This document shows, one piece after another, positions 7,087-57,312 of a stretch of DNA of 64,000 bases (the first letter of the stretch is position 1; each line of letters opens with the position of its first letter). The translations under genes and the position numbers were made by a program. This stretch comes from an uncultured Nitrospiraceae bacterium. GTDB lineage: Bacteria > Nitrospirota > Thermodesulfovibrionia > Thermodesulfovibrionales > Dissulfurispiraceae. The stretch lies in assembly GCA_903822005.1 (NCBI GenBank), contig CAIJNL010000018.1, positions 62,001 to 126,000 on the forward strand, in the 5' to 3' direction. The notes under the pieces were generated by a model, which saw only the letters and a program-made list of their open reading frames with translations, made no database searches and had not been told where the DNA came from.

Positions 7087-8541
7087 ATGAACAGAAAGCT
7101 GATATGGGTACCGGTATTGCTGCTGGCAGGTTTTCTGCTGGGCGGACTAACTTACTACCTGCTGATTACAGCTGACAGATCGGCATACAGGCCTTTCACG
7201 CCCCGCGTGCCGGCGCATATTGAAGAGACAAGCAGGGCCTTTTCCGAGATTGTAAAGGCGGTATCTCCGGCTGTTGTGAATATCTCGAGTACCAAGATCG
7301 TCAAACGCCAGCAAGCCCCTTTTGATGAATTCTTCAACAATTTCCCGCCTTTCCCGAATGGCAAAACACAGAGATTCAGGGAGCAGAGCCTCGGCTCGGG
7401 AGTGATCGTTTCGCCCGACGGCTACATTGTCACCAATAGTCATGTCGTAGAGCAGTCGAGCGAGATAAAAGTCTCGCTGTATGACAAGCGCAGCTTCAGG
7501 GCGAGGACAATCGGCATCGACTCAAAGACTGACATTGCCATAATCAAGATTGATGCAAAAGACCTGCCTGTAATCCCCTGGGGGGATGCCGAAAAACTGC
7601 AAGTGGGTGAATTCGTGCTCGCTATCGGGAATCCTTTCCTGCTCAGCCACACGGTTACCATGGGTATTGTCAGCGCGGTGGGACGGGCCGATGTCGGCAT
7701 TGCCGCATACGAAGATTTCATCCAGACCGATGCCGCAATCAACCCGGGCAACTCAGGGGGGCCGCTTGTGAATATCAGGGGCGAGCTGATAGGCATAAAC
7801 ACCGCAATTTTTTCGAGGACAGGCGGGTATCAGGGCATTGGTTTCGCGGTGCCGAGCAATATGGTAAAAGCGGTCATGGAACAGCTCATCAAGGCAGGAA
7901 AAGTTACGCGGGGATGGATAGGAGTTACTATACAGGAACTTACACCCGAACTGTCACAGCAGTTCGGCCTTAAATATTCCCAGGGCGTGCTCGTCAGTGA
8001 TGTTACGCGGGGCGGCCCGGCGCAGCGCGCGGGAATAATGCGGGGAGATATCATACTCGAATATAACGGCAAAAAAGTGCAGGATGTCGGAGCCCTGAGG
8101 AATGTTGTTGCCCAGAGCGGAATAGGAGCACGCGTGCCGATCAGGATATTGAGACGTGACAAGGATATGACCGTAACGGCGACAGTCGTAGAGCTGCCCT
8201 CAGAAGGCGCTGAGATGAAGTCCGGCTCGGCGCAGAGACCTGATTCCCCTGATAATGTGCTGTCAGGCATGCGTGTTATAGATATGAACGCTGCCATTGC
8301 AAAACAGCTTGGCGTAGAGCCGGAAGAAAAGGGCGTGGTCATCGTAAATATCGAGCCGGGCGCGCCTGCTGATGATGCAGGCCTCAAGCGCGGAGATGTT
8401 ATCACCGAAATAAACAGGCAGCGCATAACCGGCCTGAACGACTTCAACAGGATTATCGCAAGGATTAAACCGGGAGACAACGTGCTCCTTTTCGTTGACC
8501 GTATAGGCAAAAAGTTCTATACCACTATAGAGCCGCAATAG
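7087..8541 (+). CDS. degP: Periplasmic serine protease, DegP/HtrA family
   Basis: Envelope quality-control protease of 484 residues. An N-terminal membrane anchor or signal (about 5-27) precedes a trypsin-like domain with the triad in TNSHVV (His), KTDIAIIKI (Asp) and NPGNSGGPL (Ser). Two PDZ domains follow (about 280-370 and 395-480); the second includes GVVIVNIEPGAPADDAGL. The short linker around FNNFPPF is the LA-loop typical of this family. It starts 4 nt after selB. Confidence 0.93.
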   Translation: MNRKLIWVPVLLLAGFLLGGLTYYLLITADRSAYRPFTPRVPAHIEETSRAFSEIVKAVSPAVVNISSTKIVKRQQAPFDEFFNNFPPFPNGKTQRFREQSLGSGVIVSPDGYIVTNSHVVEQSSEIKVSLYDKRSFRARTIGIDSKTDIAIIKIDAKDLPVIPWGDAEKLQVGEFVLAIGNPFLLSHTVTMGIVSAVGRADVGIAAYEDFIQTDAAINPGNSGGPLVNIRGELIGINTAIFSRTGGYQGIGFAVPSNMVKAVMEQLIKAGKVTRGWIGVTIQELTPELSQQFGLKYSQGVLVSDVTRGGPAQRAGIMRGDIILEYNGKKVQDVGALRNVVAQSGIGARVPIRILRRDKDMTVTATVVELPSEGAEMKSGSAQRPDSPDNVLSGMRVIDMNAAIAKQLGVEPEEKGVVIVNIEPGAPADDAGLKRGDVITEINRQRITGLNDFNRIIARIKPGDNVLLFVDRIGKKFYTTIEPQ

Positions 8542-16034: not shown

Positions 16035-16427
16035 ATGGACGAGGTATTGCTACGGCAGGTCAGGGATATTTTCGCGGCGCATCCCGAGGTGAAGCTTGCC
16101 TATTTTTTTGGCTCCCGCAGCAAGGGAGAGGGCGGCCCCATCAGTGATTACGATTTTGCATTCTTTGCCGGTACAAAAGACAAAAAAGCTGTGTTCGATC
16201 TCAAGCTTTTACTCCAGTCAAACTTAAGCCGCGCGCTCCAGACCGACAATGTGGATGTCGTAGCCCTTAATCTCGCCAAGAGCCCTGAGCTTAAATATTC
16301 TATCATCGCGGACGGCGTCCTCATTTATGAAGAGGAGCCTTACCGGGTCCTCATTGAGCCCCGCATTATGAATGAATATTTCGATCTTTGCGAACATCGT
16401 TTACGGCATCACTTCGCAGAGGCTTGA
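16035..16427 (+). CDS. Second MntA-like nucleotidyltransferase
   Basis: A 130-residue minimal nucleotidyltransferase with FFGSRSKGEGGPISDYDF (GS-x10-DxD) and a longer C-terminal tail ending HRLRHHFAEA. It is only distantly similar to the MntA at 14676. Its stop overlaps a TTG that begins a HepT-like frame, which is broken after 25 codons, so this antitoxin appears to have lost its toxin partner. The catalytic motif is intact. Confidence 0.8.
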   Translation: MDEVLLRQVRDIFAAHPEVKLAYFFGSRSKGEGGPISDYDFAFFAGTKDKKAVFDLKLLLQSNLSRALQTDNVDVVALNLAKSPELKYSIIADGVLIYEEEPYRVLIEPRIMNEYFDLCEHRLRHHFAEA

Positions 16428-29051: not shown

Positions 29052-30218
29052 TCACAAGACTTTCTTAATTCTTTCTACAGCTTCCTTTATCCGGTCTATT
29101 TTCTGAGTCAGGGCGAAACGAATATACCCCTCACCCGGTGCCCCAAACCCAACCCCCGGCGTGCCGAGTACGCCGGCTTTTTCGAGCAGATGTGCAACGA
29201 AACTGGTCGAGTCATATCCTTTAGGCACATTCGCCCAAAGATAGAAGGATGCCTGCGGCTTATTGACCTTCAGGCCAAGGCCAGTCAAACCCGCGTACAT
29301 AACGTCGCGGCGTTCCTGGAATGTATTTCTGAGCTTTGCAAGAACGGCGTCCTCTGTCTTAATTGCAGCTATCGATGCCTCCTGTATGGCATGGAAGGCG
29401 CCGGAATCCAGCTGGGACTTTATTCTGCCAAGGCCGGCTATGACAGCTGCATTGCCCACAGCAAAGCCAATCCTCCAGCCGGTCATATTATATGTTTTGG
29501 AGAGGGAATGGAATTCTATGCCGACCTCTTTGGCGCCCTCTATTTCGAGAAAGCTGACAGGCGGCTTGTCATCAAAGTAGACCTCGGAATAGGCCGCATC
29601 GTGGCATATTATGATGTCGTGTCTCTTTGCGAGCGCCACGGCCTCTTCAAAGAAGGATTTGGGAGCGCATGCGGATGTCGGATTGTTCGGATAATTCAGG
29701 TACATTAATTTTGCGCGTTTCAGCACATCAGGCGGTATGATCTTGAAGTCAGGCAGATAATTATTCTGTTCGAGTATCGGCATGATATAAGATTCACCGC
29801 CGGCAAACAGGGTGCCAACCGGATATACAGGATATCCCGGGGAAGGCACGAGCACTATATCGCCCGGATTAACGAACGCAAGGGGCACATGTCCAATCCC
29901 TTCTTTTGACCCTAAGAGAGCGAGCACCTCGGTCTTCGGATCGAGCGTCACATTAAACCTTGTTTTATACCAATCAGCAACCGCGGTGCGGTACGAAAGC
30001 ATACCTGCATAGGAAGGGTACTGGTGATGTTCCGGTTTGGCGACAGCCGCCTGCATTGCTTCTACAATATGTTTTGGGGTTGGGATATCAGGATCGCCTA
30101 TGCTGAGATCGATGACATCAACGCCACTTGCCACCGCCTGCCGTTTCATCTCATCTATAGTCTCAAAGAGATAAGGGGGGAGATTTTTTACCCGGTCAGC
30201 AAGTTCGATCTTGATCAT
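29052..30218 (-). CDS. dapL: LL-diaminopimelate aminotransferase
   Basis: PLP enzyme making LL-diaminopimelate from tetrahydrodipicolinate in one step for lysine and peptidoglycan. It has 388 residues; motifs include DVIDLSIGDPDIPTP, PGYPVYPVG, YLNYPNNPTSA, and the Schiff-base Lys in SLSKTYNMTGWRIGFA. The final Arg contact is in GEGYIRFALT. Closely related class I aminotransferases exist, but the N-terminal YLFETIDEMKR and the PGYPVYPVGTLFAGG pattern favour DapL. It lies 43 nt upstream of folK-yjbQ, same strand. Confidence 0.88.
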   Translation of the reverse strand: MIKIELADRVKNLPPYLFETIDEMKRQAVASGVDVIDLSIGDPDIPTPKHIVEAMQAAVAKPEHHQYPSYAGMLSYRTAVADWYKTRFNVTLDPKTEVLALLGSKEGIGHVPLAFVNPGDIVLVPSPGYPVYPVGTLFAGGESYIMPILEQNNYLPDFKIIPPDVLKRAKLMYLNYPNNPTSACAPKSFFEEAVALAKRHDIIICHDAAYSEVYFDDKPPVSFLEIEGAKEVGIEFHSLSKTYNMTGWRIGFAVGNAAVIAGLGRIKSQLDSGAFHAIQEASIAAIKTEDAVLAKLRNTFQERRDVMYAGLTGLGLKVNKPQASFYLWANVPKGYDSTSFVAHLLEKAGVLGTPGVGFGAPGEGYIRFALTQKIDRIKEAVERIKKVL

Positions 30219-30332
30219 TAATAGGTCCTCCGTAATTTATGTGGTTTAAATTTTATATAAATTAAGTGCTGATTTATTATTTCCACAGATGCTGTATTCT
30301 ATCGCAGAAGTGAGGGCAAGGTCAAAGAGATA

Positions 30333-30369
30333 AAAAAAAGGCACTTCTGCAAAAGAAGTGCCTTTTTTT
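30333..30369 (-). terminator. Rho-independent terminator after the first ADKK-repeat gene
   Basis: A 9-bp stem GGCACTTCT/AGAAGTGCC with loop GCAAA, flanked by A8 on one side and T7 on the other, lies 11 nt past the stop of the gene ending at 30380. On the minus strand the T tract follows the hairpin. Confidence 0.9.
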
Positions 30370-30379
30370 AAAAGGACAA

Positions 30380-30808
30380 CTATTTCTTATCGTCAGCCTT
30401 CTTGTCGGCCTTCTTGTCAGCAGCCTTGTCAGCTGTCTTCTTGTCAGCCTTCTTGTCGGCAACCTTCTTGTCAGCCTTCTTGTCAGCAGCCTTGTCAGCC
30501 GTCTTCTTGTCAGCCTTCTTGTCGGCAACCTTCTTGTCGGTCTTCTTGTCAGCAACCTTCTTGTCGGTCTTCTTGTCGGCAGCCTTATCGGTAGCCTTCT
30601 TGTCAGCCTTCTTGTCGGCAACCTTCTTGTCAGTCTTCTTGTCAGCAGCCTTGTCAGCCGTCTTCTTGTCAGCCTTCTTGTCGGCCTTTACCTTCTTGTC
30701 AGCCTTCGCGTCAGCCTTTACTGTTCCATCGGCCTTAGGAGCGTCAGCAGCAATAGCGGTAACTGAGAATGCGAATAGGAGAGCAATGATCAGAGCTAAA
30801 ATTTTCAT
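30380..30808 (-). CDS. Exported Lys/Ala/Asp 'ADKK' repeat protein 1
   Basis: A 142-residue protein: signal peptide (MKILALIIALLFAFSVTAIA, cleavage after AIA) followed by an almost pure repeat of K, A, D, T and V, with about twenty DKK triplets in units such as KKADKKTADKAADKKADKKV. No hydrophobic core is evident, so the mature chain should be an extended or helical, very basic polyampholyte in the periplasm or outside. The GTG at 30817 lies in the ribosome site AGGAGGTG, so ATG 30808 is the start. A sigma-54 promoter lies about 60-75 nt upstream. Superficially it resembles H1-like AlgP repeats, but it is exported. Function unknown. Confidence 0.8.
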   Translation of the reverse strand: MKILALIIALLFAFSVTAIAADAPKADGTVKADAKADKKVKADKKADKKTADKAADKKTDKKVADKKADKKATDKAADKKTDKKVADKKTDKKVADKKADKKTADKAADKKADKKVADKKADKKTADKAADKKADKKADDKK

Positions 30809-30865
30809 TCGATTCACCTCCTTTATTATTGGGATGGTAGTCTCTTTTTTTGGCGAATATATAAA

Positions 30866-30882
30866 AGCATATTATGTGCCAA
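30866..30882 (-). promoter_or_regulatory. Sigma-54 promoter of ADKK-repeat gene 1
   Basis: The minus strand reads TTGGCAC-ATAAT-ATGCT: the GG and GC dinucleotides are 10 nt apart, as required for sigma-54, and the -24 element TTGGCAC is consensus. Transcription should begin near 30855, about 47 nt before the ATG at 30808. Confidence 0.85.
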
Positions 30883-30976
30883 TCAGCAATGCAAAGTAGG
30901 ATAAAATCTGACAGCGAAGGTAACCATCTGATATTATAAGACTTATACTCTTTTATACTTTATTGACTCCTGAAAA

Positions 30977-31008
30977 GAGGTCTTTTAAACAAATACTGAA
31001 AAGACCTC
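30977..31008. promoter_or_regulatory. 10-bp palindrome, possible enhancer site
   Basis: GAGGTCTTTT and AAAAGACCTC are separated by 12 nt. The centre is about 135 nt upstream of the predicted start of ADKK gene 1, where NtrC-type activators usually bind. A second terminator for the upstream gene is the alternative reading. Confidence 0.4.
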
Positions 31009-31060
31009 AAATAAGGATTCGCTTCCCCATTTGAGGATATTTCTTGCATTTGATTTAAAA

Positions 31061-31088
31061 AAAGGGGATGTCCTGAGACATCCCCTTT
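31061..31088 (-). terminator. Rho-independent terminator after the second ADKK-repeat gene
   Basis: A 12-bp stem AAAGGGGATGTC/GACATCCCCTTT with loop CTGA lies 13 nt past the stop of the gene ending at 31102. A run of A on the plus strand gives the T tract on the transcribed minus strand. Confidence 0.9.
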
Positions 31089-31101
31089 GGTGGAGCAACA
31101 T

Positions 31102-31473
31102 CTACTTCTTGTCTTCGATCTTCTTCTCTACAGGTGCCTTTTTGTCAGTAACCTTTTTCTCAGTAGCAGTCTTCTTGTCAGCTATCTTCTTGTCTGCAGC
31201 GGCTTTCTTCTTGTCAGCGGCGGCCTGCTTCTTGTCAGCAGCGGCTTTCTTCTTGTCGGCAATCTTCTTGTCGGCTACAGCCTTCTTGTCATCAGCGGCT
31301 TTCTTCTTGTCGGCAATCTTCTTGTCAGCTACAGCCTTCTTGTCATCAACCTTCTTGTCCGCTGTCTTAACCGGTGCCTTGGTGTCGACTGCCGGGGTGG
31401 TGTCTGCCGCCATTGCAACAGTTACTGACATGGCGAACATGATTGCTACGATCAGTGCTAGTACTTTTTTCAT
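31102..31473 (-). CDS. Exported Lys/Ala/Asp 'ADKK' repeat protein 2
   Basis: A 123-residue paralogue of the 30380-30808 product: signal peptide (MKKVLALIVAIMFAMSVTVA with AMA just after) and a mature chain of repeats such as ADKKIADKKKAADDKKAV, with about a dozen DKK triplets. A short Pro/Val/Thr segment (TTPAVDTKAPVKT) precedes the repeats. Strongly basic and low-complexity, it probably has no compact fold. GGGAG lies before ATG 31473. It has its own sigma-54 promoter and terminator, so it is monocistronic like its paralogue. Function unknown. Confidence 0.8.
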   Translation of the reverse strand: MKKVLALIVAIMFAMSVTVAMAADTTPAVDTKAPVKTADKKVDDKKAVADKKIADKKKAADDKKAVADKKIADKKKAAADKKQAAADKKKAAADKKIADKKTATEKKVTDKKAPVEKKIEDKK

Positions 31474-31499
31474 TTTGATCTCCCTTGTAGTTGTTTTTA

Positions 31500-31527
31500 A
31501 TATAGTCCTCTTTATTGAGGACTATAT
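31500..31527 (-). promoter_or_regulatory. 5'-leader hairpin of ADKK gene 2
   Basis: An 11-bp perfect inverted repeat (ATATAGTCCTC/GAGGACTATAT) with a 6-nt loop starts at about the predicted sigma-54 transcription start and ends 27 nt before the ATG. It would place a stable hairpin at the mRNA 5' end. It could instead be a protein-binding palindrome. Confidence 0.5.
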
Positions 31528-31533
31528 AGTTAA

Positions 31534-31550
31534 AGCATTTTGCGTGCCAA
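31534..31550 (-). promoter_or_regulatory. Sigma-54 promoter of ADKK-repeat gene 2
   Basis: The minus strand reads TTGGCAC-GCAAA-ATGCT, with GG and GC 10 nt apart. The -24 heptamer is identical to that of gene 1 and the -12 element (ATGCTT) is shared. The predicted start is near 31523. Confidence 0.85.
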
Positions 31551-31727
31551 AAGCGAAGAGATATTCAAGCAAAATGGAATTGTTAACATAAGTAGCTGAA
31601 TCATATGGCCAATTTGTAGAAATATAACCTGGGGTGGTCGTAGCGATTAAAAATGCGGCCGCTGGATGTAGTATTAAAGTCCCTATTTACGGAAACAAGT
31701 CCTTATTTGAGACGTTTTCAGTACGAC

Positions 31728-32057
31728 CTACCTCCTGGTCCTCTTTTTCGACTCGAGTTTAATGCTGTTTGCGCACTTCTTGCCGCTCACCTCTGTATAT
31801 TTTATAATTACCTTATCGTTGACATTAATTTCTTTCAGGAGGGATTCATCTGCAGTAAAGATGAGTTCGTCCCTGCTCTTGATAACAATTATTCCCGCGG
31901 CGGTGTCGACGGCCTTTACCACGCCATTGGCGGTCTTCTCTCTGGCCTTTCTTTCAGGCTTATTACTGGTTGTCTGCGGTGTTGTCTTGCTGTCAGAAGC
32001 CCCAACATTAAAAGGAAACACGAACAAAAGCGCCAATGCAATAAAAAATACCCTCAT
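31728..32057 (-). CDS. Small exported beta-domain protein
   Basis: A 109-residue protein with a signal peptide (about 1-20), a Ser/Thr/Lys linker, and a C-terminal domain alternating hydrophobic strands: ANGVVKAVDTAAGIIVIKS, LIFTADESLLKEINVNDKV, CANSIKLES. This pattern occurs in many small periplasmic DUF5666-like or CusF-like barrels; one Cys is present and no metal-binding motif is clear. The tail is basic (KKRTRR). GGGAGGATT precedes the ATG. No sigma-54 site was found upstream. It lies between the NtrC-type regulator and the ADKK genes on the same strand. Confidence 0.7.
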   Translation of the reverse strand: MRVFFIALALLFVFPFNVGASDSKTTPQTTSNKPERKAREKTANGVVKAVDTAAGIIVIKSRDELIFTADESLLKEINVNDKVIIKYTEVSGKKCANSIKLESKKRTRR

Positions 32058-51942: not shown

Positions 51943-53346
51943 TTACCCCACTATGTCCAGTTTACGCACCCTCAGGCCAACGCCGAGGCCTTCACAGAGC
52001 TGTTCGCATTTACCGACGTCCACACCTTCCATCTCTACTATGGTCGCTTTCACGTCAGGTATAAAATGCTTTGCTTTACGCAGGAAATCGAGCACTGCTG
52101 CAAAAGCGCCCTCAAAGGAGGGGCGGCAGATCTTTTTGTAGGTCTCCTCATCCTGGGCGTCCAGGCTTACTGATATGGCATCAACGAGGCCTTTCAGTTC
52201 CGGCAGGACATTGCGCCCGTTTATAACGTTGGCATGACCGTTGGTATTGATCCTGACCTTTCCGCCGTGCTTTTTTACCCAGGCCGCGACAGACTTTACA
52301 ACATCAAACCTGAGGGTCGGCTCTCCATAACCGCAGAAGACAATCTCTTTGTATTTTGACGGATCACCGATGGCCTGCTTAAGTTCTTTTTCGGTCGGCT
52401 CGCTTCCGAGCCTGAGGTTATGCCCTTTGACGAAGTCCGACTGATATCTGATGCAAAAGGTGCATTTGTTAGTGCATCTGTTTGTTATGTTGAGGTAGAG
52501 GCTGTCGCGTATCTTGTAGGCTATCCTGGCTTCATCAGCCTCGCCTATGCCGAACAACCGCTTGGCGTTCAGGGAGGTGATCCGGTCAATGTCATCCAGG
52601 GATATGCCGCGCAATCCGGCAATAAACCTGGCGGTCTCTATAACATATGACGGCTCATTTCTCTTTCCGCGAAATGGTTCGGGAGCAAGATAGGGCGCAT
52701 CGGTCTCTACCAGCAGCCGTTCGTCCGGCACGTGGCGCGCAACTTTTTTAAGTACCGCCGTATTTTTAAATGTGACCGGTCCTGCTATCGAGATATGGAA
52801 CCCGAGTTCGAGCGTCTTTTCGGCCATCTCCACGTCTCCGGAAAAGCAATGCATAACTCCTTTGCGCACGCCTGACTGCCTGAGTATTTCCAGAGTATCT
52901 GCTTCGGCCTCCCTGCTATGCACGATTACCGGCAGGTCGATATCTTTTGCAAGAAGCAGCTGTTTCTCAAATACTTCTCTCTGCTTTTCCCTGGGCGAAT
53001 GGTCGTAGTGGTAATCGAGGCCTATTTCTCCAAGGGCGACGACTTTGGGAGCAGAAATGCAGTCATCAGCGTCCCTGTGCGGCCGCAAGCCCCGGCCATC
53101 GGAGATCCAGGTCCTTAACCGAGAGTAAACATCATCCGAAAAGTCTTTAGCATCATGCGGGTGAATGCCGACAGCAGCATACACAAAGTCATGCTTTGCG
53201 GATAGGGAGACAGCACCCTCGCAGCCGCCAATATCCGAGCCTATAGTGACGATGGCTTCTACGCCGCTCTCCTTTGCGCGCCTGATCACCGCATCGAGGT
53301 CGGCCCCGAAATCTTCCATCTCCAAATGGCAGTGTGTATCTATCAT
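51943..53346 (-). CDS. TatD-family hydrolase fused to a radical SAM domain
   Basis: A 467-residue two-domain protein. Residues 1-255 are a TatD metal-dependent deoxyribonuclease: MIDTHCHLE (HxH), ALGEIGLDYHYDHSP (Glu), VIVHSREA, MHCFSGD and LVETDAPYLAPEPFRGKRNE. Residues 275-467 form a radical SAM domain with CTNKCTFC (CX3CX2C), FCGYGEPTLR and the INTNGHA strand. Separately encoded 'TatD-linked radical SAM' proteins exist; here they are one chain. Substrate unknown. The radical SAM domain is about 190 residues, shorter than a full barrel. Confidence 0.92.
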   Translation of the reverse strand: MIDTHCHLEMEDFGADLDAVIRRAKESGVEAIVTIGSDIGGCEGAVSLSAKHDFVYAAVGIHPHDAKDFSDDVYSRLRTWISDGRGLRPHRDADDCISAPKVVALGEIGLDYHYDHSPREKQREVFEKQLLLAKDIDLPVIVHSREAEADTLEILRQSGVRKGVMHCFSGDVEMAEKTLELGFHISIAGPVTFKNTAVLKKVARHVPDERLLVETDAPYLAPEPFRGKRNEPSYVIETARFIAGLRGISLDDIDRITSLNAKRLFGIGEADEARIAYKIRDSLYLNITNRCTNKCTFCIRYQSDFVKGHNLRLGSEPTEKELKQAIGDPSKYKEIVFCGYGEPTLRFDVVKSVAAWVKKHGGKVRINTNGHANVINGRNVLPELKGLVDAISVSLDAQDEETYKKICRPSFEGAFAAVLDFLRKAKHFIPDVKATIVEMEGVDVGKCEQLCEGLGVGLRVRKLDIVG

Positions 53347-53422: not shown

Positions 53423-55162
53423 GTGGACAAGACATTGCTAGGACAATTGCTCCTCAAAGCAAGGGTGATCAGCGAGAAGCAGCTCGAGGAGGCGCTCAAA
53501 CTTCAGCAGGTGGAGGGGCGCAGGCTTGGATCGGCGCTGATTAAGCTCGAAGCAGTGAGCGAGGAGAACATCATCACCTTCCTGAGCAGGCAGTACCATG
53601 TGCCGCCTATAAACCTTACGGACTTTAAATTCGATCCGTCTCTGATCAGGTATATTTCGTATGATATAGCAAGGCGTTATCATGTGATACCCCTGATGCT
53701 TGCCGGCGGAAACCTGCGGATAGCGGTGGCCGACCCCTCCAACCACATGGCCATCGAGGACATTAAATTCATCAGCGGCATGAATGTCTCGGTTTATGTT
53801 GCGGTGGAGTCCATGATAATGGATGCCATTGAGCGCTATTATCCGAACAGCGAAAAGATGAAGAAGCCTGCAGAAACTCCAAATAACAGGAAGTCTTCGC
53901 AGGTCCCTGCCGAAGAGGTCGGCCGCAGTCTCGACAGGGCTCTCGAAGAACTGACCGTTTCAATTGCAACTGAACGCCCGGGCAATAAAGAGCTGGATCA
54001 GCCTATAGAAAAGATGCTTAACGGGCTGTTTGTGAATGCCATAAAATACAGGGCAACCGATGTGCATATCGAGCCGGGCGAAGAGCAGCTGGGAGTCCGT
54101 TTCCGTATAGACGGGGTGCTCAAGCCCATCCTCAAGCTTCCCGCGCCGATGAAGAATGTGCTGGCCTCAAGGGTAAAGCACCTGTTTAAACTCGACGCGG
54201 AAGAGACTCAGCTGCCCCAGACAGGCAGGATTAAACTCAAGTTCGGGGCCAACAAGGAGATCGACTGCCGGGCTTCGACATTCCCGACGCTGTTTGGCGA
54301 GAAGATCGTCCTTAAGGTCATTGACAGGGCCAACATCACGTTCGATATCGAAAAGCTGGGGTTTGATATGAAGCAGCTGCTCAATTTCAGTAATGCAATA
54401 AAAAGGTCCCAGGGTATTGTGCTCGTGGCCGGCCCGGTCGACAGCGGCAAGACGACTACGATTTACTCGGCCCTGATACACCTTAACAAACCGGGGATAA
54501 ACATAATGACGGTTGAAGACCCGATAGAATTTAATCTGTTCGGCACCAACCAGGGCCAGATCAGGCCTGACATTGGCCTTACCTACGCCGCCGCACTCGA
54601 ATCCCTGCTGAGCCAGGACCCTGACATAATTGCGGTAGGGGAGTTAAAGGACCGGGCCACGGCTGAACTGGCGGTCAAGGCCGCCCTTACCGGCCATCTT
54701 ATAATCAGTACCGTACCCGCAAGCGATGCTGCCGGAATACTGACGCGGCTGGCAAATATGGGTATAGAACCTTATGCGGTGTCCTCTACTGTCACAGCAT
54801 GCATATCGCAGCGACTGGTGAGAAAGATATGCGAGCATTGCAAAATTGCACAGTCATTTGACGAAACAACGCTCCTGAAGATCGGGTTCCCTTCCGACCT
54901 GATCGGCACGTTTACATGTTACAGCGGAGCGGGTTGTGAACATTGCAACAATACAGGCTATTCCGGCAGGACCGCTATCTTCGAGGTGCTGCCTGTGAAT
55001 GCCGATATACAGGAATTGATAATGCGCAATGTATCTCCCGTGGAGATCAGGTACAAGGCCGTGATGCTGGGGATCACCACCCTGCGTCAGAGCGGTATTC
55101 AGAAGATACTCGACGGCATTACATCCGTCGATGAGGTCTTAAGGGTCACATTTGAGGATTGA
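53423..55162 (+). CDS. PilB/GspE-like secretion ATPase with altered motifs
   Basis: A 579-residue hexameric-type ATPase. N-terminal MshEN/T2SSE_N domain (about 1-150, LGQLLLKARVISEKQLEEAL), linker, then ATPase with DVHIEPGEEQLGVRFRID, Walker A GPVDSGKTTT, VEDPIEFN, Walker B DPDIIAVGELKD, and a Cys4 zinc site (CEHCK, CEHCN). Two deviations: Walker A has VD instead of the usual TG, and the His box (normally HTN) reads TVPASDA. The open frame runs further upstream, but GTG 53423 starts the recognizable domain. It is immediately upstream of a PilT-like gene. Confidence 0.88.
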   Translation: MDKTLLGQLLLKARVISEKQLEEALKLQQVEGRRLGSALIKLEAVSEENIITFLSRQYHVPPINLTDFKFDPSLIRYISYDIARRYHVIPLMLAGGNLRIAVADPSNHMAIEDIKFISGMNVSVYVAVESMIMDAIERYYPNSEKMKKPAETPNNRKSSQVPAEEVGRSLDRALEELTVSIATERPGNKELDQPIEKMLNGLFVNAIKYRATDVHIEPGEEQLGVRFRIDGVLKPILKLPAPMKNVLASRVKHLFKLDAEETQLPQTGRIKLKFGANKEIDCRASTFPTLFGEKIVLKVIDRANITFDIEKLGFDMKQLLNFSNAIKRSQGIVLVAGPVDSGKTTTIYSALIHLNKPGINIMTVEDPIEFNLFGTNQGQIRPDIGLTYAAALESLLSQDPDIIAVGELKDRATAELAVKAALTGHLIISTVPASDAAGILTRLANMGIEPYAVSSTVTACISQRLVRKICEHCKIAQSFDETTLLKIGFPSDLIGTFTCYSGAGCEHCNNTGYSGRTAIFEVLPVNADIQELIMRNVSPVEIRYKAVMLGITTLRQSGIQKILDGITSVDEVLRVTFED

Positions 55163-55167
55163 ACATA

Positions 55168-56268
55168 ATGCCTGAACTTAAAGAACTGCTTAAGCACATG
55201 AAAGAAAAGGGCGCCTCTGACCTGCATATTACCACGGGCGCCCGCCCAAGACTGAGGATAGCCGGCAATCTGGTCTCTGTAGAGGACTACCGGGAGCTTT
55301 CTCCTGAAGACACGAGGAAGCTTTGCTGCGGATTTATGACAGAAGCCCAGCTGAAAAAATTTGAAACTCTAAACGAGATAGATGTCTCGTTCGGTATCCA
55401 GGGCCTGAGCAGGTTCAGGGCCGATATTTTTCTGCAGAGGGGCGCTGTTGCGGGCACCTTCAGGGAGATACCGTTTGAGATCAAGGGTCTGAGAGAGCTT
55501 GGGATGCCCGAAATAATAGATGAAATACTGAAAAAAAAGCATGGCCTTATTCTTGTCACCGGTCCGGCAGGCAGCGGCAAGTCCACAACACTGGCCTCAA
55601 TGATCGAAAAGATCAATTCTGAGCGCGAGGCGCATGTAATCACCATAGAAGATCCCATCGAATTCCTCCACAGCCACAAGAAATGCATCATCAACCAGAG
55701 AGAGCTTGATTCAGACACCCCGTCTATCGCATCGGCTCTTAATTATGTGATGCGGCAGGACCCCGACATAGTCATGATAAGTACTCTCAGGGACCTGGCT
55801 GCAATAGAGGCCGCCCTTGCGATTGCGGAATCCGGCCATCTGGTGCTGGCAAGCATGCATACCAATTCCGCCCTGCAGACTATAGCACGCATTGTCGAAT
55901 TGTTCGCCCACCAGAATCACGACTACGCCCGCAGCGTGCTAGCTGAAAGCCTTGAAGGCATAATCTCTCAAAGGCTTGTCAAGAAGAGGGATGGCGGAGG
56001 AAGGGTCCTTGCATGCGAGGTACTAATCCCTACGACTTCCATAAGGACGCTGATAAGGGAAGGGAAGACCACCCAGATATACTCGATCATGCAGACCGCG
56101 CGCTCCGGCATGCTCACAATGAACCATTCTCTGACTGAGTTATGCAAGGCAGGGTGCATAAGTTACGATGATGCACTTGGCAATTCTACGGCCCCTGAAG
56201 AGATCATGGCAAAACTGCCCAGGACAAAAGACAAGGCATCTAAAAAAGAGGCATCTTCGGGAGACTAA
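55168..56268 (+). CDS. PilT/PilU-like retraction ATPase with changed Walker B
   Basis: A 366-residue ATPase. The N-terminal GASDLHITTGARPRLRIAG, Walker A GPAGSGKSTTLASM, Asp box IEDPIEFLH, and His box LASMHTNSA are standard. Walker B reads DPDIVMISTLRD where the family has (V)GE(M/I)RD, so the catalytic Glu is replaced by Thr. The frame opens with a TTG at 55159 overlapping the pilB stop, but ATG 55168 is the family start. Position after the PilB-like gene suggests both work on one pilus or DNA-uptake pseudopilus. Confidence 0.87.
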   Translation: MPELKELLKHMKEKGASDLHITTGARPRLRIAGNLVSVEDYRELSPEDTRKLCCGFMTEAQLKKFETLNEIDVSFGIQGLSRFRADIFLQRGAVAGTFREIPFEIKGLRELGMPEIIDEILKKKHGLILVTGPAGSGKSTTLASMIEKINSEREAHVITIEDPIEFLHSHKKCIINQRELDSDTPSIASALNYVMRQDPDIVMISTLRDLAAIEAALAIAESGHLVLASMHTNSALQTIARIVELFAHQNHDYARSVLAESLEGIISQRLVKKRDGGGRVLACEVLIPTTSIRTLIREGKTTQIYSIMQTARSGMLTMNHSLTELCKAGCISYDDALGNSTAPEEIMAKLPRTKDKASKKEASSGD

Positions 56269-56342: not shown

Positions 56343-57101
56343 TTATGTAATCCGCTCTGGATGGGTATAGACATTGAACCTGTCGCCCCGTATGAAACCG
56401 ACTACCGTAACACCGCTTTTTTCGGCAATATCGACAGCAAGGCTTGTGGGCGAGGTCCTGCTTCCGACAACGGGTATGCCCCACCTGGCGCACTTGGATA
56501 CGATCTCGGACGACAGCCTGCCGCTTGCCAGCATCATCTTGCCGCTGAAGGGTATCTCTTCGAGGATGGCGTAGCCGATTACCTTGTCCACCGCATTGTG
56601 CCGGCCTATGTCTTCTGCAAGACACAAGATTGATTTGCCGTCACTCAACCCGGCGCTGTGAATGCAGCCCGTCAGTTGATGAAGATCGGACATTTTCTGG
56701 AAGTCGCTGAAAATCTCTTTCAGCTTCCGTGAGCTGATCCTGAACGGATCGTCTATTTTCTGCAGGCTTGCCCTCTTTGGAAAGGTTATACCGCCAATGC
56801 AGCCCGATGTTATCACGGCGTCATCTATCGATATATCGCCGTCAACAGGCACATCGACACTAACATCTTCTCCGTAAATTATCGACATTTTCTCACCACA
56901 CCATTTCCCTTTGACTATGTTCTCGCTCATGAGCATGCCGACAACAAGCTCCCTTATCATAAGTGGTGTGCAATACATGCTCAATATCTCTTTGCCGTTC
57001 ACAAGAATGCGCAATCGCTGTTCGATAGCTATGCTGTCTTCTACCTCTTCGAACGCGTCACCCGAATTTTTGACGATGGTTCTTTTGATATAACTATTCA
57101 T
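56343..57101 (-). CDS. fdhD: Formate dehydrogenase accessory sulfurtransferase FdhD
   Basis: Delivers sulfur to the molybdopterin cofactor of formate dehydrogenase. It has 252 residues: SGCIGGITFP near residue 100 (one active-site Cys visible; the second Cys of the E. coli CxxC is Gly here), HQLTGCIHSAG, EDIGRHNAVDKVIGYA, ASGRLSSEIVSKC and SRTSPTSLAVDIAEKSG. A TTG at 57137 opens the frame, but ATG 57101 is preferred. No fdh structural gene is in the window. Confidence 0.93.
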   Translation of the reverse strand: MNSYIKRTIVKNSGDAFEEVEDSIAIEQRLRILVNGKEILSMYCTPLMIRELVVGMLMSENIVKGKWCGEKMSIIYGEDVSVDVPVDGDISIDDAVITSGCIGGITFPKRASLQKIDDPFRISSRKLKEIFSDFQKMSDLHQLTGCIHSAGLSDGKSILCLAEDIGRHNAVDKVIGYAILEEIPFSGKMMLASGRLSSEIVSKCARWGIPVVGSRTSPTSLAVDIAEKSGVTVVGFIRGDRFNVYTHPERIT

Positions 57102-57312
57102 ACTGTTTAAATTATCACAAATTCGCAAGGGAAACAAATAATTGATACATCGGAAGCGCCTATTTGGGCATTTGCGAGTACCTTTGGAAAAGTTGTCTCT
57201 TGCCGGGTGTATTAAAAGTTGGGGTGTGGTATATTACCCAATACAGCTTAAAGTGTCGGGCGCCTGACGGCCGCTGACCCAGATCCGTCTAATCTTATAT
57301 GAGGTGAAGATA

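Follow-up and report, generated by a model that had tools for sequence, protein, structure and literature searches.

In the papers that we consulted, retraction ATPases with damaged active sites are known mostly from mutants. In Pseudomonas aeruginosa PilT, E204A and H229A are each reported to abolish twitching, the His lying beside the catalytic Glu (PMC6858323). In Vibrio cholerae, PilT inactivated in Walker A or Walker B is described as still supporting PilU-driven retraction, with hyperpiliation in the Walker B form, and experiments there argued against PilT/PilU hetero-hexamers (PMC6762196). In MSHA pili, PilT K136A with active PilU reportedly behaves like these inactivated forms (PMC9815625). 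Extension and retraction ATPases have further been described as competing for the stator (PMC11656802).

The pair of ATPases analyzed here resembles several of these systems without matching any. Geobacter PilT4 (6ojx, 5zfq) is of the same family as our retraction-type protein, with about 51% identity, the same fold, and pilB reported as adjacent (PMC5065972), but it has all four motifs and is a functional retraction motor, whereas our PilT4-like protein lacks the Walker B Gly-Glu. The V. cholerae Walker B mutants and the natural R206S variant of strain MO10 offer the parallel of an impaired PilT whose function is sustained by another retraction ATPase (PMC6762196); these are, however, point mutants or a single strain, whereas the loss described here is conserved and has become fixed in several genera. 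PilU is likewise a second retraction-family protein with a partner-dependent role, yet it keeps its catalytic motifs and powers retraction, while our protein is of the PilT4 type with a broken site. Acinetobacter, with PilB and TfpB (inhibitor CpiA), is described as having two extension ATPases per genome (PMC8213720, PMC11656802), but TfpB is a working motor, whereas our PilB-like protein scores 427.9 against a TfpB-model cut-off of 850 and has lost its His box. In the open-licence PMC literature we found no paper on PilT as a pseudo-ATPase, ATPase-dead protein, or pseudoenzyme; wider searches there returned only the PilB review PMC11656802, and one on Nitrospirae pili listed nothing on point.

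The pilB-pilT4 pair and its locus

In the 64,000-nucleotide stretch of DNA that we analyzed (the window), two forward-strand ORFs overlapping by 4 bp (53423-56268) encode proteins that Pfam and NCBIfam place in the T2SSE superfamily. The first (53423..55162; 579 amino acids, GTG start) is a degenerate ortholog of the extension ATPase PilB, and the second (55159..56268; 369 amino acids, starting with TTG at 55159 or ATG at 55168) is an ortholog of the retraction ATPase PilT4 with a degenerate Walker B. Reading the motifs in the sequence confirmed what the original prediction had claimed for both proteins. The PilB-like protein keeps the Walker B Glu in VGELKD (DPDIIAVGELKD, 54617..54652; Glu407 kept, Arg409 replaced by Lys) and has lost its His box, which reads VPAS where LHTN is canonical (54713..54724; STVPASDA in context, with PAS for HTN and Pro for His432). 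The PilT-like protein retains HTN (55858..55866; ASMHTNSA in context), and ISTLRD replaces VGE(M/I)RD, so that the canonical Gly-Glu has become Ser-Thr (DPDIVMISTLRD, 55759..55794). Its P-loop is intact (GPAGSGKSTT, 55561..55590), the Asp box IEDP is present, and SIRTLIREGK (56038..56067) is the counterpart of the PilT AIRNLIRE motif. The predicted VD in the PilB-like Walker A is also there (GPVDSGKTT for canonical GPTGSGKTT, 54431..54457), although GPVDSGKTTT still fits the GxxxxGK[ST] consensus. Since GxxxxGKT persists, this P-loop is altered rather than lost, and ATP binding is not obviously gone. The protein also retains the N2D arginines and four conserved cysteines, which we take to be a zinc site.

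By model score, the PilT-like protein belongs to the PilT/PilU family (TIGR01420, 420.2 bits against a cut-off of 319.1), and it carries the Walker A (GPAGSGKST), Asp-box, and His-box signatures of that family. Where Walker B should provide the catalytic Glu (Dh4GE), it reads DPDIVMIST, and because this Glu is absent we regard the protein as a PilT/PilU member by descent and not as a canonical retraction ATPase. Its AlphaFold2 model is confident (pLDDT 91), with Geobacter PilT4 as the nearest solved fold (TM 0.8-0.9; 51% identity, versus 38-39% for solved PilU). The PilB-like protein falls below the cut-off of the PilB equivalog TIGR02538 (611.3 against 675.65 bits), though this is its best-scoring model, and it combines Glu407 with Pro at the His-box position where PilB has both Glu and His. 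A search against contigs of named-organism genomes returned only distant PilBs, at best 45% identical.

The convergent neighbor fdhD (56343..57137, reverse strand) marks the ancestral position of the pair. In relatives the same two genes stand together, and among those whose surroundings were read and which have fdhD, this gene lies alongside, for example in G018, G007, G016, and G010. The G018 ortholog, 63% identical to the PilT4-like protein, directly follows PilB, with fdhD adjacent. From the PilB tree, as from the motif table, we excluded the G046 PilB, which has an in-frame TGA, and the G017 PilB, which is split between contigs. In this tree the window protein and the copy of the sister species G001 join the pair-type PilB of genus g7 (support 92/84), apart from PilBs of the type encoded on contig C22 of the window genome, and their stem is long (0.93). 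Given the fdhD-side locus and this tree, we take the pair in the window to be the original operon, and the working PilB to be the second copy; judged from sequence and position, the pair corresponds by positional orthology to the standard pilB-pilT4 operon. We rejected the possibility of a decayed extra copy off the main locus, since the pair occupies the ancestral fdhD-side locus and it is the canonical PilB that lies elsewhere.

The genome has seven T2SSE matches, including the window pair. The canonical motors that the original prediction had suggested looking for elsewhere in the genome are indeed there, namely a PilB on C22 and a tandem PilT pair on C2, together with two canonical PilB/GspE-like proteins on C12 (beside a T2SSF platform gene) and C25; C6 carries a PilC-type (T2SSF) gene, and C42 a PilM gene. 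The C22 PilB (L065 8433-16623, G000:C22) adjoins an MCP (HAMP and MCP signal domains) and a CheA-like protein (Hpt, CheW, and receiver domains), and genus g7 has a similar arrangement (L119 95-7756, G007:C50). In these two genera the second PilB is longer (623-634 amino acids) and also stands beside DUF4388 proteins.

A few other features of the window deserve mention. An ORF at 51943-53346 (reverse strand) fuses a TatD-type DNase with a radical SAM domain (Pfam TatD_DNase, Radical_SAM), and an ORF resembling this fusion adjoins the pair in G001 too. Two neighboring reverse-strand ORFs (30380-30817 and 31102-31473) encode an apparent signal peptide and, after it, long repeats of the DKKxADKK type, rich in Lys, Ala, and Asp, within a region of strong AT skew (-0.226 in 30001-32000). 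By eye, a small forward-strand ORF (16035-16427; GSRSKGEGGPISDYDF) resembles a minimal nucleotidyltransferase, possibly half of an MNT-HEPN pair.

Motif loss across the family

A PilT4 ortholog (E<=1e-97) is present in 119 of the 176 genomes surveyed in the order, 19 of them within the family of the window and 100 outside it. Outside the family, GE[MLI]RD and HTN occur in 100/100 PilT4s, and GE[IV]RD and HTN in 91/91 readable neighboring PilBs (94 matches, of which 3 were cut off and uncounted), which places the substitutions beyond chance. Within the family, 12 of 31 genomes lack PilT4 at this threshold. The 19 family PilT4s comprise 8 canonical copies, 3 in which a Walker B Arg-to-His replacement beside the Glu is the sole change (G002, G004, G016), 7 degenerate copies (the window, G008, G012, G015, G017, G021, G041), and 1 that is unreadable, the G001 PilT, which has an NN gap and was omitted from the motif counts.

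Catalytic residues are lost unevenly among the seven degenerate PilT4s. The Glu is missing in 4/7, with Asp instead in G008 and G015, and the His-box His in 6/7, the window copy alone keeping it. The three that retain the Glu (G012, G021, G041) may also retain weak activity. All seven keep the P-loop G/GK/TT residues, the Asp-box Glu, and the N2D arginines, none of which was among the selection criteria; the copies were chosen by motif, so that the choice itself accounts in part for the clustering of changes in Walker B and the His box. Among the pair-type PilBs, all 25 other family rows tabulated are canonical, and only the genus of the window is altered.

These patterns bear on the idea of mixed hexamers, raised in the original prediction. 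In such hexamers the PilB-like protein would supply Glu and the PilT-like protein His, each making good the defect of the other. Two adjacent, overlapping genes with opposite losses do invite such a reading, and two-hybrid interactions among PilB, PilT, and PilU have been reported (PMC6762196). However, the PilB beside a degenerate PilT4 is fully canonical in 5/6 other genomes, that is, in 5/5 with a readable neighbor, the sixth (G017) lying at a contig end. With canonical PilBs beside most degenerate PilT4s, the pairing of opposite defects is not a recurrent design, and the seven copies show no consistent complementarity. Moreover, because the His-box His adjoins the catalytic Glu in PilT, as described for P. 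aeruginosa (PMC6858323), swapping subunits would be expected to leave each site one residue short. Mixed hexamers thus remain unsupported, and we consider them very improbable. What survives of the prediction is the plausible notion of a regulatory or partly active motor, not the mutual rescue of opposite defects. Another possibility is that both proteins are real motors, only slow ones, whose catalytic chemistry has changed to suit low-speed or high-force pilus dynamics. The P-loop, Glu407, cysteines, and N2D arginines of the PilB-like protein, the Glu kept in three degenerate PilT4s, and strong purifying selection all speak for such motors, but in P. aeruginosa PilT, replacing the Glu or the His-box His by Ala is in each case reported to abolish twitching (PMC6858323), and the window PilT-like protein lacks both the Gly and the Glu of Walker B; we consider this unlikely.

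Selection and recurrent origin

The original prediction had held that relatives with normal motifs in both genes would point to simple decay or sequence error. The sister species G001 has the same PilB-like changes: at 26 of 171 otherwise invariant positions both species are changed, 17 of the 26 to the identical residue. In PilT, the NN gap of the G001 assembly (L067, about 8290-8300) falls exactly on the segment from Walker B to the His box and hides the key motif. Sequencing or assembly error was rejected as an explanation, the ORFs being intact and the PilB-like changes common to the sister species.

Purifying selection is evident in a pairwise codon model of stop-to-stop ORFs, in which a few upstream codons are included. 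For two pairs of degenerate PilT4s, omega was 0.049 (G012/G021; dS 1.1; 0.025-0.060 over 20 bootstraps) and 0.040 (G015/G041; dS saturated), and for the PilB-like pair it was 0.048 (dS saturated); canonical pairs gave 0.031-0.125 for PilT4 and 0.018-0.087 for PilB. The values for degenerate pairs are far from 1 (2 dlnL 213-435). The window/G001 PilT comparison gave 0.036 with saturated dS (5.2), but the gap left out of it contains the motif, so this value is silent on the degenerate state itself. Because G001 shares the PilB-like changes and dN/dS is 0.04-0.05, decay or sequencing error is unlikely to account for the substitutions.

Of 169 positions that are invariant elsewhere, the degenerate PilT4s are changed at 33-49, some of them outside the active site, versus 0-6 in canonical copies of the family; constraint was thus loosened and reshaped, in keeping with its partial relaxation. 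Two close relatives of degenerate carriers (G040 and G020) have no PilT4 gene, so that the gene is dispensable there. Such losses could reflect slow decay, in which the operon became redundant after the tandem PilT/PilU and the second PilB were in place, both genes now drifting to loss as functionless, transitional ORFs. The absence of PilT4 from 12/31 family genomes and from all 28 genomes of f3 and f10 with the PilU-type tandem would agree with such drift, as would the elevated change outside the motifs. Against it stand the omega values, the intact ORFs without stops in all seven genomes with degenerate copies, the retention of ATP-binding residues in 7/7, and the confident predicted fold of the PilT-like protein, and we regard slow decay as rather unlikely. 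Taken together, the data suggest that broken retraction motors are kept by natural selection, in a control role rather than in simple decay.

Degeneration has also recurred. On the PilB tree, which requires 3 changes, a single clade of degenerate carriers is rejected (p-AU 4e-8), although we defined this group only once the first tree was available. The PilT tree in turn joins G017 with the near-canonical G002 (99/96). This would amount to about four origins, long branches leaving the exact count unsure. A possible cause lies in the tandem PilT-PilU locus, whose PilU-type gene is found in 50/176 genomes (21 from the window's family, 15 from f3, 13 from f10, plus one weak f13 match). PilT4 occurs in 0/28 of the f3 and f10 carriers, and outside the window's family PilT4, canonical throughout, is confined to families that lack the PilU type, apart from the weak f13 match. 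This distribution fits a replacement of PilT4 in its motor duty, as an association over few families. Six family genomes (G006, G013, G018, G044, G045, G046), however, have both a PilU-type gene and a canonical PilT4, which counts against replacement as the full cause; the genus of the window lacks this PilU type but has another tandem PilT pair.

A proposed conserved ring at the pilus base

We favor, with a probability of roughly one in two, a reading in which the products of the ancestral pilB-pilT4 operon have become non-motor or weak-motor proteins on which selection still acts, the PilT4-like protein forming an ATP-holding, non-hydrolyzing ring docked at the pilus base. Motor duty would have passed to the other canonical extension and retraction ATPases of the genome. 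PilT4 would have been converted recurrently; in the sequences, its ATP-binding residues and arginine network are kept, and the catalytic Glu, the His-box His, or both are lost. The precedents of PilT/PilU mutants and the competition for the stator lead us to place the ring at the base, where it may still dock on PilC/PilM and regulate pilus dynamics. Its role might be that of a brake, which would dampen retraction by occupying the base, or else that of a passive adaptor for another retraction ATPase to work through; docking, hexamer formation, and regulation are all inferred. The PilB-like partner would have been attenuated in this genus only, extension having been taken over by the second canonical PilB beside the MCP/CheA-type cluster. 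More tentatively, this lineage may repeatedly have made its retraction ATPase a conserved pseudo-motor, an ATP-locked, base-docked brake or clutch, and in one genus its extension ATPase as well.

In the open-licence PMC papers that we consulted, the only catalytically dead retraction ATPases described as doing useful work at the base of the pilus are engineered mutants and one strain variant. If our reading is true, such proteins also form a set that is natural, recurrent, and under selection, on which the tuning of type IV pili by non-hydrolyzing rings could be tested directly, and care would be needed before any pilT is annotated as a functional retraction motor.
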